From the NCBI GenBank assembly GCA_024643385.1, contig JAHEMZ010000015.1, positions 1 to 52,027 of the forward strand: DNA of 52,027 nt. Direction: 5' to 3'. The notes under the pieces are model-generated. The model ran no database searches. It had not been told where the DNA came from and saw only the letters and a list, made by a program, of their open reading frames with translations. The translations under genes and the position numbers were made by a program. The DNA is from Flavobacteriaceae bacterium. GTDB taxonomy: Bacteria > Bacteroidota > Bacteroidia > Flavobacteriales > Flavobacteriaceae. This document shows positions 34,837 through 40,230 of the stretch, one piece after another. Position 1 is the stretch's first letter. Each line of letters starts with the position of its first letter.

Positions 34837-35820
34837 ATGAAAATAGCTTTATACTCGCTTTTGTTTTGTAGCATCTTCTTTTTTTCGTGCAATTCATCTA
34901 CGGAAAAAAGGGACACCTCTTATCTAACCGAATCGGTTGGTGCCATCAACGGACTTCAAGTGGTAATTTCTAATGAATTGTGGAATGGCGCTGTTGGTGA
35001 AAAAATAAGGGAATACTTTGCCGCACCTACCGATGGGCTTCCACAACAGGAACCTATATTCTCCATCAACCAAATTCAACCGGAAAATTTTACGGACTTT
35101 GCTCGAACCTATCGAACCTTTCTTCAAGTGACCATAGCAGATAAGGACACGTTGATATTAAAGGAGAATTCATATGCAAAACCTCAAATAGCAGCCTTTA
35201 TAACGGGATCGGGGGAAGCACAAATTAATGCACTGTTGGAACAACATTATCTTCAGATCATTCAAACTTTTAAGACCTACGAAATAAAAGAGCGTCAACG
35301 CAGAACAAATATTTCACTTCTTTCTGTAGATTCGTTACATGAACGTTTTGGACTGAACCTTAAAATTCCTTCTGCCTATAGAGTAGCATCTGCTTGTGAT
35401 GATTTTTATTGGCTCAGAAAAGATTTAAAATCGAACGGAAGTACTAACCTGTTGATTTATGAAGTACCCTTAAATATTATCGGTCAAGATTCAACATTGG
35501 TTAGTGATATTATACGAATGAGAGATACCATTGGTTCTAGTTATCTGCCGGTAGAGGATGACGCCCTTTTTATTACAGAGGAGGCCTATGCGCCTTATCT
35601 TTTTACTACAGATATAGACGGAAAATTTACTTATGAAACGAAAGGAACATGGGAATTAAAAGATGCCTATATGGCGGGTCCTTTTGTTAATTATGCCATT
35701 AGAGATGAAAGGAACCAAAGATACTTGATCATAGAAGGATTCACCTATGCGCCTTCCATGGAGAAAAGAGACCTACAATTTGAATTGGAATCCATTATTC
35801 GATCAGCAAAAATAAATTGA
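34837..35820 (+). CDS. DUF4837 family lipoprotein
   Basis: The 327-residue product has a lipoprotein signal (lipobox FFSC, Cys18). The mature part fits the DUF4837 family as I remember it: SVGAINGLQVVISNELWNG near the start, ERQRRTNISLL in the middle and a Tyr/Thr-rich C-terminal half with GPFVNYAIRDERNQRYLIIEG, spread over about residues 283-305. The family is found in Bacteroidota and has no known function. It is a single gene with its own promoter and a strong terminator after the stop. Confidence 0.82.
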   Translation: MKIALYSLLFCSIFFFSCNSSTEKRDTSYLTESVGAINGLQVVISNELWNGAVGEKIREYFAAPTDGLPQQEPIFSINQIQPENFTDFARTYRTFLQVTIADKDTLILKENSYAKPQIAAFITGSGEAQINALLEQHYLQIIQTFKTYEIKERQRRTNISLLSVDSLHERFGLNLKIPSAYRVASACDDFYWLRKDLKSNGSTNLLIYEVPLNIIGQDSTLVSDIIRMRDTIGSSYLPVEDDALFITEEAYAPYLFTTDIDGKFTYETKGTWELKDAYMAGPFVNYAIRDERNQRYLIIEGFTYAPSMEKRDLQFELESIIRSAKIN

Positions 35821-36177: not shown

Positions 36178-37044
36178 ATGGAGAAAAAGGAAAAAAGAGG
36201 AAAAATATTAAGGAAAAAGCTTCTGCATAAGTATCGTTTAGTGGTACTGAACGAAGAAACTTTTGAGGAACGGTTTTCATTTAAGTTAAACCGCCTGAAT
36301 GTATTTGTATTTAGCACACTGTCTGCCCTGGTTTTAATATCGGTCACAACTTTCCTTATTGCTTTTACACCTTTGCGTGAGTACATCCCGGGGTACTCAT
36401 CCACTGCTCTTAAGAAGAGAGCGACAACACTCGCTTATCAAACAGATTCCCTTCAACAAAAAATAATTGCTAATGAGCAATACCTGGCCTCTATAAAAAT
36501 GGTACTTACCGGGGATGTGAAATCGGAAAATCTGAACAGGGATTCTATTTTTGAGGCCGTTCAAAGAGAGATCGACGAAGGTCAATTTATACCCGCAAAG
36601 GAGGATTCTTTATTACGAGAGAAAGTGCAACAAGAAGATAAATATAATCCTCTTACGGAAAATCCGGTTGTAAATTTCGTATTATTCCCTCCTGCTACCG
36701 GAAGTATATCGGAAGATTATAACCCTGAAGAAAAACATTTTGCCGTCGATATAGTTACCGTAAAAAATAGCCCCGTGAAAGCAACCGCCGACGGCACCGT
36801 CATTTTTGCAGAATGGACGGCAGAAACGGGCTATGTCATAATTATCAAGCATAACTTCAACTTAATTTCGGTTTATAAACACAACTCCTCATTGATCAAA
36901 CAACAGGGAGATTTGGTAAAAGCGGGGGAAGTGATTGCGAACTCAGGAAATACCGGAGAACTGACCACAGGCCCACATTTACACTTTGAACTGTGGAGCG
37001 ACGGCTATCCTATTAACCCAAGAAACTTTATCGATTTTAACTAA
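36178..37044 (+). CDS. M23 (LytM) family peptidase, membrane-anchored
   Basis: The 288-residue protein has a basic N-terminus, one membrane helix (about 40-62), a coiled-coil linker and a C-terminal LytM domain. All zinc and catalytic residues are present: H187 and D191 in HFAVD, and H267/H269 in PHLHFE. It should act in the periplasm on peptidoglycan cross-links or regulate division. A GH3-like gene starts one base after its stop, so they are co-transcribed. Confidence 0.92.
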   Translation: MEKKEKRGKILRKKLLHKYRLVVLNEETFEERFSFKLNRLNVFVFSTLSALVLISVTTFLIAFTPLREYIPGYSSTALKKRATTLAYQTDSLQQKIIANEQYLASIKMVLTGDVKSENLNRDSIFEAVQREIDEGQFIPAKEDSLLREKVQQEDKYNPLTENPVVNFVLFPPATGSISEDYNPEEKHFAVDIVTVKNSPVKATADGTVIFAEWTAETGYVIIIKHNFNLISVYKHNSSLIKQQGDLVKAGEVIANSGNTGELTTGPHLHFELWSDGYPINPRNFIDFN

Positions 37045-37045
37045 G

Positions 37046-38542
37046 ATGACACTAAAAGCCTTCGGAGCCAAAATCTTTGCTAAAACCATCGTTCAACAAA
37101 TCTCCTCCTGGGCTTCCAAACCAATAGAAACACAAGAGAAGGTCTTTCACCAACTTATTGCAAAAGGAAAATACACTCGGTTTGGGAAGGATCACAATTT
37201 CGGTGAAATTAGAACTCATGAAGATTTCATCACTCGTGTTCCGATAAGAGATTATGAGGATTTACGCAATTATGTAGACCTGATGGTGGAGGGAAAACCG
37301 GATATTTTGTGGCCGGGAAAACCTCTTTATTTCGCAAAAACATCCGGAACTACTTCGGGAGCAAAGTATATTCCCATTACTTCCGAATCCATGCCGCATC
37401 ATATTCGCGCGGCCCGCAATGCAATTTTATGTTATATACATGAAACCGGGAACACTCGAATTGTGGATGGAAAAATGATTTTTTTACAAGGGAGTCCGTT
37501 GCTACAAGAAAAAAACGGAATTAAATTAGGTAGACTCTCCGGAATTGTGGCGCATTATGTGCCAAAATATCTACAAAAAAACAGAATGCCTACTTGGGAA
37601 ACCAATTGTATTGAAGATTGGGAAGAAAAAGTAGAAGCGATCGTTTCAGAAACACAACACGAAGATATGTCCATTATTAGTGGAATACCTTCTTGGGTGC
37701 AAATGTATTTCGAAAGACTTCGTGTTAGAACAGGATTGAAGGTTGGGGACCTCTTTCCAAATTTTGAATTGTTTATCTACGGCGGTGTGAATTACGAACC
37801 TTATCGTAAGAAGTTTGAAAATCTAATTGGTAAAAAGGTGGATAGCATTGAATTATTTCCGGCGTCGGAAGGGTTTTTTGCGTTTCAAAATGAACAAAAT
37901 GATCCAGGATTATTACTTCAACTAAACGCCGGTATTTTTTATGAATTTGTCGAGGCAGACTCTTTCTTTTCAGACCACGCTGAACGAATCACACTTAAGG
38001 AAGTCAAGATTGGGGTAAATTATGTAATGATCATCTCTACGAATGCTGGTCTATGGGCCTATAATCTGGGAGATACGGTTCAATTTACTTCAACCAAGCC
38101 TTATAAAATTGTTGTTTCAGGCCGCATCAAGCATTTTATATCTGCCTTCGGAGAGCATGTTATCGGAAAAGAAGTGGAACAAGCAATGCAAAAAGCATCT
38201 GAAAAATTCGGCTTTTCTATTACAGAATTTACGGTTGCTCCACAAACGGAAACCTCAAAAGGCGAGCTGCCCTATCACGAATGGTTAATCGAATTTGAGA
38301 ACACCCCTGAAAACCTTTCTGCCATAGCTGAAGCAATAGATAAATCACTTCAAAAGCAGAATAGTTATTACCTCGATCTAATTGAAGGGAAAGTTCTTCG
38401 CAAGTTAAAAATCACCCCATTAAAAAAGGACACTTTTAACGATTACATGAAACTACAAGGAAAGCTGGGCGGCCAAAACAAGGTTCCCAGACTCTCCAAT
38501 GACAGAAAAATCGCGGACGAACTCATCAAGTTACAACTTTAA
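37046..38542 (+). CDS. GH3-like acyl-adenylating enzyme
   Basis: The 498-residue cytoplasmic protein belongs to the GH3 auxin-responsive family. An ATP/AMP-binding loop FAKTSGTTSGAKYIP lies around residues 97-110, LFPASEGFFAFQ in the middle, and ISAFGEHVIGKEVEQA in the C-terminal domain. Plant GH3 enzymes conjugate carboxylic acids to amino acids via an acyl-AMP intermediate; the role of bacterial members is unclear. The start at 37046 is chosen because the longer frame (36986) lies inside the M23 gene. A phosphorylase-like gene follows 23 bases after the stop but has its own -7 box. Confidence 0.9.
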   Translation: MTLKAFGAKIFAKTIVQQISSWASKPIETQEKVFHQLIAKGKYTRFGKDHNFGEIRTHEDFITRVPIRDYEDLRNYVDLMVEGKPDILWPGKPLYFAKTSGTTSGAKYIPITSESMPHHIRAARNAILCYIHETGNTRIVDGKMIFLQGSPLLQEKNGIKLGRLSGIVAHYVPKYLQKNRMPTWETNCIEDWEEKVEAIVSETQHEDMSIISGIPSWVQMYFERLRVRTGLKVGDLFPNFELFIYGGVNYEPYRKKFENLIGKKVDSIELFPASEGFFAFQNEQNDPGLLLQLNAGIFYEFVEADSFFSDHAERITLKEVKIGVNYVMIISTNAGLWAYNLGDTVQFTSTKPYKIVVSGRIKHFISAFGEHVIGKEVEQAMQKASEKFGFSITEFTVAPQTETSKGELPYHEWLIEFENTPENLSAIAEAIDKSLQKQNSYYLDLIEGKVLRKLKITPLKKDTFNDYMKLQGKLGGQNKVPRLSNDRKIADELIKLQL

Positions 38543-38550
38543 AATAGTAG

Positions 38551-38558
38551 TATCTTTG
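38551..38558 (+). promoter_or_regulatory. -7 box of the phosphorylase-like gene
   Basis: TATCTTTG, a perfect TAnnTTTG, lies 7 bases before the ATG at 38566, so the leader is at most a few bases long. Confidence 0.6.
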
Positions 38559-38565
38559 CACCGAA

Positions 38566-40230
38566 ATGAATACTTCACAAGTACATAAAAGAACAAGAGC
38601 GCAAGAAAGTTCAGGAGCCATTGAACGTATTTATATTACCATGCGTCACCTTTTCAATAGAGGATTCTATAAACCCATGGGGGTGAGTGGTGAATCTTTA
38701 AGAGAGTCGCTATTTATTTTGCGACCTGAGATTTATGGTTCCATCTCGGAGGAGAAAATTGAATTGCAAGGTCTTTTGTACGTAATAGATCGATTACCTT
38801 ACGGAATTGAAGAGTGCCGATTTATTAATCTTACCAGTGATGAAGGCTATAATAAATCACATTTTAAACCCATTATACCTCCTAAGAGACGAAGAAACTG
38901 TTACCGTATTGATACGGAACAGATGAATATTGAAATTACCCGAGGGCGGAGCGAAATTTATGACATTCTTACCCATCTTACCTTTCTTTATATTGAATCC
39001 CACAAGATCATGAAACAAGTCTTGATCAATGATGAAGGGGAATTGATCAGGGATTGGGAAAAACTGGAAGAAGCAGTGCTCTATAAAAAGGAATTATCTC
39101 AAAAGGATAAAGAGATCGCCTTAACGCACACAGCTAATTTTTTGGGAAGAACCTTCGAGGAAGTTAGCGAAATTTACCCTGAATTTTCTTATCATGAAGA
39201 TGAGCATCGTTTTCTAAAGATCATTTACTACTTAGGACGCGGAGCAATCGATGAAGTGCTGGAGAAAAAGCAAAGGCTCATAACCTTTAGCCCCGTTTTG
39301 CGCGAAAGGTTGGGACACCATATCCATGGCGAAAGATGGGCCACCCGAATTAAGAAGGAAATACACGATAGAAATTGGATGCAGCGTCCATTACATATTG
39401 TGAGCGCTAACATGCACAGCATCATGAATTCGTTGTATGCAGAACGTGTTTTGGTGGCGGAAAGTAAAGGAAAGACCCAATTTGAATTATTTGAAGCCTT
39501 GAGCAAATCAGAAAATTCAAAGTTGCGGGAAAAAGTTGAAAAATATGCCCTTGAGCATGGGATGGTCTATCTGCCGGATGAAAGCGGGACCAATATAGAT
39601 GTGCAATTATTTGACACTGAAAAACTATCCATGGGGCATGAATATCCTGAAGGTGAATCTCCATTATTGTTAGTGATGGATTATGCTTTCGGAGAACAGG
39701 CCTATGAAACCATGGATGAGCTTCTGAAGCCTTATTCAGGAAATCGCAAAAAAGAATTCATGAATGTTGCATCGATATCTATCATGGGTAAAGCCGGAAT
39801 TCTTGACGGAGGGAAAGGAGATATAATGATCCCAAAATCTCATATATTTGAGGGAACAGCGGATAATTATCCTTTTAAGAACAAAATAAAGAAAAGTCAT
39901 TTTTCGGAAGACCTAAACGTATATACCGGGGCAATGATCACTGTTTTGGGAACTTCCTTGCAGAACAAGGATATTTTGACCTTTTTCCATGATTCATCCT
40001 GGGATGTAATTGGTTTGGAAATGGAAGGAGCCCATTATCAGAAGGCGATTCAATCCGCCTCAAAAATACGTGGCAGCATCAATGCAAATGTGGAAGTTCG
40101 CTACGCCTACTATGCGTCCGATAACCCACTGGAAACAGGAAGCACCCTTGCATCAGGAGGTTTAGGAACAACAGGGGTGAAACCCACGTATTTGATTACT
40201 CAAAAAATTCTGGAACAGATTCTAAAATAA
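38566..40230 (+). CDS. DUF6909-like protein with nucleoside-phosphorylase-like C-terminal half
   Basis: This 554-residue soluble protein has a mostly helical N-terminal half (about 1-290) that I do not recognise. The C-terminal half resembles the PNP/UDP-phosphorylase/nucleosidase fold: GKAGILDGGKGDIMIP (408-423) matches the usual AG...GDIVIP strand-turn, and EMEG (485-488) matches the substrate-binding MEG motif. From memory I place it in DUF6909, a Flavobacteriia family; unverified. It may bind or cleave a nucleoside-like molecule. It follows the GH3-like gene and precedes rfbB by 3 bases. Confidence 0.7.
   Translation: MNTSQVHKRTRAQESSGAIERIYITMRHLFNRGFYKPMGVSGESLRESLFILRPEIYGSISEEKIELQGLLYVIDRLPYGIEECRFINLTSDEGYNKSHFKPIIPPKRRRNCYRIDTEQMNIEITRGRSEIYDILTHLTFLYIESHKIMKQVLINDEGELIRDWEKLEEAVLYKKELSQKDKEIALTHTANFLGRTFEEVSEIYPEFSYHEDEHRFLKIIYYLGRGAIDEVLEKKQRLITFSPVLRERLGHHIHGERWATRIKKEIHDRNWMQRPLHIVSANMHSIMNSLYAERVLVAESKGKTQFELFEALSKSENSKLREKVEKYALEHGMVYLPDESGTNIDVQLFDTEKLSMGHEYPEGESPLLLVMDYAFGEQAYETMDELLKPYSGNRKKEFMNVASISIMGKAGILDGGKGDIMIPKSHIFEGTADNYPFKNKIKKSHFSEDLNVYTGAMITVLGTSLQNKDILTFFHDSSWDVIGLEMEGAHYQKAIQSASKIRGSINANVEVRYAYYASDNPLETGSTLASGGLGTTGVKPTYLITQKILEQILK

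Follow-up and report, generated by a model that had tools for sequence, protein, structure and literature searches.

The DUF6909 protein encoded at positions 38566..40230 (+) of the window, i.e., the whole stretch of 52,027 nucleotides of Flavobacteriaceae DNA analyzed here, is most likely an AMP nucleosidase analogue whose N-terminal domain matches no recognized fold, as judged from its predicted fold and its distribution among Bacteroidota. We give a probability of roughly two in three to the reading in which it has the nucleoside phosphorylase/nucleosidase (NP-I) fold, acts as an N-ribosyl hydrolase and performs the role of AMP nucleosidase (AMP + H2O -> adenine + ribose 5-phosphate), with AMP as the presumed substrate and hydrolysis as the presumed reaction. 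The strongest evidence for this role is the distribution of the family. No function is known for DUF6909, which is very conserved and present in 54/54 genomes sampled from the window's family and from a second one in its order (f2). Should it be an AMP nucleosidase, a gap in the purine metabolism of these bacteria would be closed, and the family would represent a clean case of repeated enzyme replacement by an analogue that is invisible to sequence search.

Gene models and genomic neighborhood

Both genes singled out in the initial annotation of this region are real and are arranged head to tail. The DUF6909 protein (554 aa) matches PF21850 with 199.6 bits (gathering cut-off 27) in two stretches that span most of its length. 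Its relatives are 52–79% identical, which excludes a chance open reading frame, and in the collections searched the nearest ones belong to Flavobacteriaceae (best identity 79%), which places the origin of the window in this family or close to it. The literature searched mentions DUF6909 nowhere. Two plasmid copies were found in Persicobacter, whereas phages yielded no DUF6909 match and PADLOC no match to anti-phage defense.

The gene upstream (37046..38542, +) encodes a GH3-family acyl-adenylate/amide synthetase of 498 aa. A mechanical list of open reading frames begins it at a TTG further upstream; we prefer the ATG at 37046, one nucleotide after the end of the stop codon of an M23 peptidase gene (36178..37044, +; PF01551). 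DUF4837 (34837-35820; 274 bits) lies in the same conserved block as the peptidoglycan enzymes LT/LysM and M23, and rmlB starts 3 nt past the end of DUF6909.

This neighborhood varies among relatives. Many of them (L131:10018-11094, L126:10475-11509 and many of the loci L032-L111) encode a protein of ~350 aa between DUF6909 and rmlB that has no Pfam match and is absent from this position in the window. Flavobacteriaceae bacterium MAR_2010_72 (L107) shows a second DUF6909-like tblastn match ~5.3 kb downstream on the opposite strand, adjoining a second rmlB, which is either a duplication or an assembly feature. At another locus (L130:9700-12100, genome G198), the gap between GH3 and DUF6909 contains a mosaic array of about 2 kb, made up of ~120-bp repeats based on CTGTCATTCAGAGC..AGCGAAGAATCTC, for which Rfam gave no match; a spurious 61-aa open reading frame at locus L237 seemingly derives from sequence resembling this array.

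Predicted structure of DUF6909

An AlphaFold2 model of DUF6909, built from 57 aligned homologs (pLDDT 82.6, pTM 0.67), consists of an N-terminal domain (residues 1 to ~254; 38566..39327, +) and a C-terminal NP-I domain (residues ~255–554; 39328..40227, +). With VIA-align, the C-terminal domain of this predicted model superimposes on 3uay with Z 18.9 and rmsd 2.8 over 212 residues, and adenosine phosphorylase, MTAN, futalosine hydrolase and uridine phosphorylase are tied as fold matches (Z 17.8–18.9). Foldseek matches to AMP nucleosidases, PNP and MTAN range from E 1e-6 to 7e-8; the top match, Salmonella AMP nucleosidase 2guw, extends over 509 alignment columns at a high rmsd, so that the relative placement of the domains is not matched. 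On the predicted model, the C-terminal domain belongs to the NP-I (PNP/UDP phosphorylase) fold superfamily. The phosphorylase or nucleosidase fold suspected for the C-terminal half from the sequence is hence borne out, with a domain that begins near residues 255–275 and not at residue 290 as had been supposed.

Sequence searches with the same protein were silent on this relationship. PF01048 (PNP_UDP_1) does not match DUF6909 at E ≤ 1, no NCBIfam family does up to E 10 (TIGR01721, NF005500 and other AMP nucleosidase models included), and a search of PDB sequences with the DUF6909 profile returned chance matches only. In the window's own genome, PF01048 has two members only, a PNP of the PunA type and a protein resembling uridine phosphorylase.

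The N-terminal domain (model pLDDT 76.7) had been described as an unrecognized helical domain. It indeed has no recognized fold, but the model is mainly helical with some strands and not purely helical. Searched alone, the domain finds no PDB match at E < 0.001 or Z > 3.3, although a missing match is no proof of a new fold. Its identification as AMNp_N, the N-terminal domain of Amn, was considered and rejected: a local likeness to Amn exists (ITR followed by a helix), but the profile comparison did not exceed permuted controls, and Pfam gave no AMNp_N match.

Active-site residues

Using MAFFT L-INS-i, we aligned the C-terminal domain to the short AMP nucleosidases of Bacteroidota and to E. coli-type Amn. 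Residues were surveyed in 64 homologs from four families that were chosen without regard to the motif and read in frame, leaving out one row in the wrong frame (L269). The AG...GDIMIP and EMEG motifs on which the idea of a phosphorylase-like protein had been founded are present, the former within KAGILDGGKGDIMIP (residues 409-423), the latter as E485, M486, E487 and G488 (40018..40029, +), and their key residues are kept in 64/64 homologs. EMEG aligns with DMES/DMET of AMP nucleosidases (M404 and E405 of Amn), and an SDNP motif that includes D519 (40117..40128, +) aligns with the SDKP of Amn, i.e., D428, and with SDQP/SDNP of the short AMP nucleosidases. In the full series, the aligned pairs are SAN282 with TN205, GK409AG with GKCGG or GHCGG, GD419 with GD, TG455 with TG373, EME487 with DME405, and SD519NP with SD428KP. 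GK-x-G and SD-x-P are common to DUF6909 and the short AMP nucleosidases.

In Klebsiella Amn, the base and sugar are held by N205, W383, M404, E405 and D428, and the phosphate by H188, Y189, R381 and K436 (PMC9584410). N282, M486, E487 and D519 of DUF6909 align with N205, M404, E405 and D428 of this set and are invariant in all 64 homologs. The catalytic acid and the ribose-binding E-M-E that characterize the NP-I superfamily are thus represented by D519 and E485-M486-E487, both aligned and invariant. Amn residues H188, Y189, R381, K436 and W383 have no clear DUF6909 counterpart at the aligned positions, the alignment being unsure in the phosphate loops. DUF6909 instead has a loop of its own, TGxTLxSGxLG (524-534), which is invariant in the 64 homologs. 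Its residues 529-533 are poorly ordered in the model (pLDDT under 50), and the loop recalls the flexible one at 435-443 in Amn. Profile comparison of DUF6909 with AMP nucleosidases gives a marginal similarity only (hhalign E ~0.03, equalled by 2–3% of column-permuted controls); what links the two is their fold, the order of the motifs and the distribution.

Distribution and mutual exclusion

DUF6909 occurs in 61 of 392 Bacteroidota genomes. These comprise every genome of the window's family (46) and of f2 (8), plus parts of two other families (f5 and f8). The short AMN-like enzyme TIGR01721 is found in many other Bacteroidota families, and no protein above its cut-off was detected among the searched DUF6909 genomes, including those of the window's family and f2. 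Long Amn (PF10423) was found in 0/384 Bacteroidota genomes.

The two mixed families were examined with one genome per genus, 92 genomes overall. Family f5 comprises 22 genomes with DUF6909, 23 with the AMN-like enzyme, none with both and one with neither; the corresponding numbers in f8 are 25, 20, 0 and 1. Together, 47 genomes have one of the two proteins and 43 the other, 2 have neither, and 0/92 have both. Fisher tests give p values of 6e-12 (f5) and 4e-12 (f8); since kinship inflates tests of this type, we made an rpoB tree of 77 of the f5 and f8 genomes. This tree requires at least 13 changes, 10 of which are forced by well supported branches. Among 10 independent pairs, 9 or 10 change in opposite directions, none in the same way, and at most one lacks a difference in the AMN-like enzyme (sign test p 0.002). 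The DUF6909 tree is partly congruent with rpoB in f5 and f8 (Spearman 0.64 and 0.79), so the pattern may stem from exchange, or from an ancestor bearing both genes followed by differential loss. In either case, retention of exactly one of the two in nearly every genome is the signature of two enzymes with the same job. The supposed tie of DUF6909 to the GH3 gene was not upheld; what DUF6909 tracks, by strict mutual exclusion, is AMP nucleosidase.

The short AMN-like enzyme has a PDB structure (1ybf), and we found no biochemical assay of it; the exclusion consequently demonstrates equivalence to this enzyme and not AMP as the substrate. Both proteins could share as substrate another nucleotide or a nucleoside, e.g., GMP, a deoxy- or damaged nucleotide, or a signalling nucleotide, in which case the TIGR01721 annotation would be wrong for both. 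TIGR01721 is itself only a hypothetical equivalog, the residues with which Amn binds phosphate are without clear counterparts in DUF6909, and the invariant loop of DUF6909 is its own. We nevertheless regard a different shared substrate as unlikely, since TIGR01721 proteins satisfy NF005500, the equivalog model for AMP nucleosidase, and reach E ~1e-40 to 1e-43 against Amn models, and since DUF6909 has SD-x-P in common with proven Amn, along with the residues for base and sugar. Slightly less likely is a nucleotide nucleosidase in which the N-terminal domain would be a new sensor and the substrate a signalling or aberrant nucleotide other than AMP. If true, DUF6909 and the short AMN-like enzyme would define a function that is widespread in Bacteroidota, misannotated, and supplied by either of two interchangeable proteins.

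The GH3 enzyme and its pairing with DUF6909

The identification of the upstream product as a GH3-like adenylating enzyme was confirmed: its N-terminal, middle and C-terminal domains (Pfam GH3, GH3_M and GH3_C; PF03321, PF23571 and PF23572) all score above cut-off, and the three nucleotide motifs of the family are present (motif 1 TSGTTSGAK, motif 2 LFPASE, motif 3 GLWAYNLGD). There is nothing unusual about this gene, which belongs to a known kind. OlsH of Singulisphaera is a GH3-like lyso-ornithine lipid synthetase that joins fatty acids to ornithine, and its authors consider ornithine doubtful as the substrate in Bacteroidota, where the homologs are thought to use other amino acids (PMC12493201). 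The window protein matches the OlsH equivalog NF052613 at E=1.4e-118 with 396.7 bits, under the cut-off of 620. It is probably an N-acyl amino acid synthetase that would, like OlsH, adenylate a fatty or other acid and couple it to an amino acid, independently of DUF6909. A second GH3 paralog in the window's genome (L256; G000:C81:4224-5696) is 38% identical and reaches a slightly higher OlsH score of 407.5 bits.

The initial annotation proposed that the two genes, if conserved as neighbors, form and then process a conjugate in an undescribed pathway. The adjacency is conserved within one family: 80/80 named close relatives have GH3 upstream of DUF6909 (at most 1.5 kb away in 79), and of the 46 genomes in the window's family, 40 have both genes on the same strand within ~2.5 kb. 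Outside this family, it is found in 0/15 DUF6909 genomes (0/8 in f2, 0/7 in f5 and f8 together). The annotation had named a lack of conserved adjacency as refuting its proposal, and such a lack is thus seen by half. In the close relatives, the pair is always embedded in a longer block, often PGK-LT-DUF4837-M23-GH3-DUF6909-rml, and where the pair is broken within the window's family, M23 still lies beside GH3 in all three of the six genomes that were examined, making M23 the stable neighbor of GH3 in this family.

The promoter of Bacteroidota has the -7 consensus TAnnTTTG. A match to it, TATCTTTG (38551..38558, +), precedes the DUF6909 ATG by 7 nt. Matches within 60 nt of the DUF6909 start occur at 76/94 loci, compared with 4% in shuffled sequences and 0/79 before GH3. 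In nearly all cases this promoter-like box is located 1 to ~27 nt before the start codon, so close that the transcript would have a very short leader or none. With a box of its own at DUF6909 and none at GH3, DUF6909 probably has its own transcript start, and GH3 goes with the M23 gene upstream.

Cooperation of the two proteins, with DUF6909 processing the acyl conjugate made by GH3 or removing the AMP that GH3 releases, is very improbable on this evidence. It would fit the constant neighborhood of the close relatives, the adjacency in most genomes of the window's family and the fact that GH3 chemistry releases AMP, the proposed substrate of DUF6909. However, in addition to the restriction of the adjacency to one family and the separate promoter-like box, the conserved block holds unrelated genes such as PGK, several DUF6909 genomes have no GH3 of the window's type, and GH3 does not adjoin the AMN-like gene where the positions of both were listed. 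We set aside a functional pair as the main reading because only one family has the adjacency, and there it belongs to a longer block. GH3 and DUF6909 are probably neighbors by inheritance and not partners in a new pathway; a metabolic link via released AMP is possible but not needed.

Proposed activity

In the AMP nucleosidase reading, the short AMN-like TIGR01721 would do the job in many Bacteroidota, and DUF6909 in Flavobacteriaceae, the second family of the order and scattered genera elsewhere. The active site would be located in the C-terminal domain, with D519 protonating the leaving base, M486 and E487 holding the ribose, and N282 on the base side. The Gly/Ser/Thr-rich loop 524-537 may close over the 5'-phosphate, and the N-terminal domain could be regulatory or assembly-forming.

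A dead or regulatory NP-I protein, with exclusion reflecting incompatibility instead of equivalence, would suit a family of no known activity whose large N-terminal domain has no known fold. We consider it very improbable, because catalytic-type residues are invariant in every homolog read, and because incompatibility alone does not explain why exactly one of the two proteins is kept in 90/92 genomes. The phosphate motifs GDPxR and R-x-G-[ST]-x-G of DeoD and Udp, with their arginines, are absent from DUF6909; it has SAN and IMGKAG in place of GDPxR and R-x-G-[ST], a trait of nucleosidases. As these arginine loops are missing, the attacking group would be water and not phosphate, and a phosphate-dependent nucleoside phosphorylase is most improbable even with PNP and adenosine phosphorylase among the closest Z-scores.

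Comparison with known systems

The GH3 protein of the window resembles OlsH (PMC12493201) in its three-domain architecture and three nucleotide-binding motifs, and differs in its score (397 bits against a cut-off of 620). DUF6909 shares with the nucleoside phosphorylases and MTAN (DeoD, Udp, MtnN) the fold, the catalytic Asp and the E-M-E ribose motif, but it is without the phosphate loops of the phosphorylases and has SD-x-P in place of SDHI/SDVA. Amn (TIGR01717; E. coli, Klebsiella) likewise combines an extra N-terminal domain with a C-terminal NP-I domain and provides counterparts in N205, M404, E405 and D428; it carries AMNp_N, which was not detected in DUF6909, its R381, W383, K436, H188 and Y189 have no clear match there, and it is absent from the sampled Bacteroidota. 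As DUF6909 falls outside both Amn and TIGR01721 by sequence, we class it as AMP nucleosidase-like in its working and not as a member of either.

The short Bacteroidota AMP nucleosidase (TIGR01721/NF005500; 1ybf) is ~258 aa long, lacks the N-terminal domain of DUF6909 and is not recognizable as its relative by sequence search; at the phosphate and base site, DUF6909 does not share its lysine and arginine/tryptophan positions. Common to both are the NP-I fold, the motifs GK-x-G, GD, EGT-x-x-x-Y, TG, [ED]ME and SD-x-P in identical order, and a complementary distribution that implies the same role. Their exclusion in 92 genera, with at least 10 independent changes, is indirect evidence that DUF6909 fills the place of TIGR01721 in the genome.
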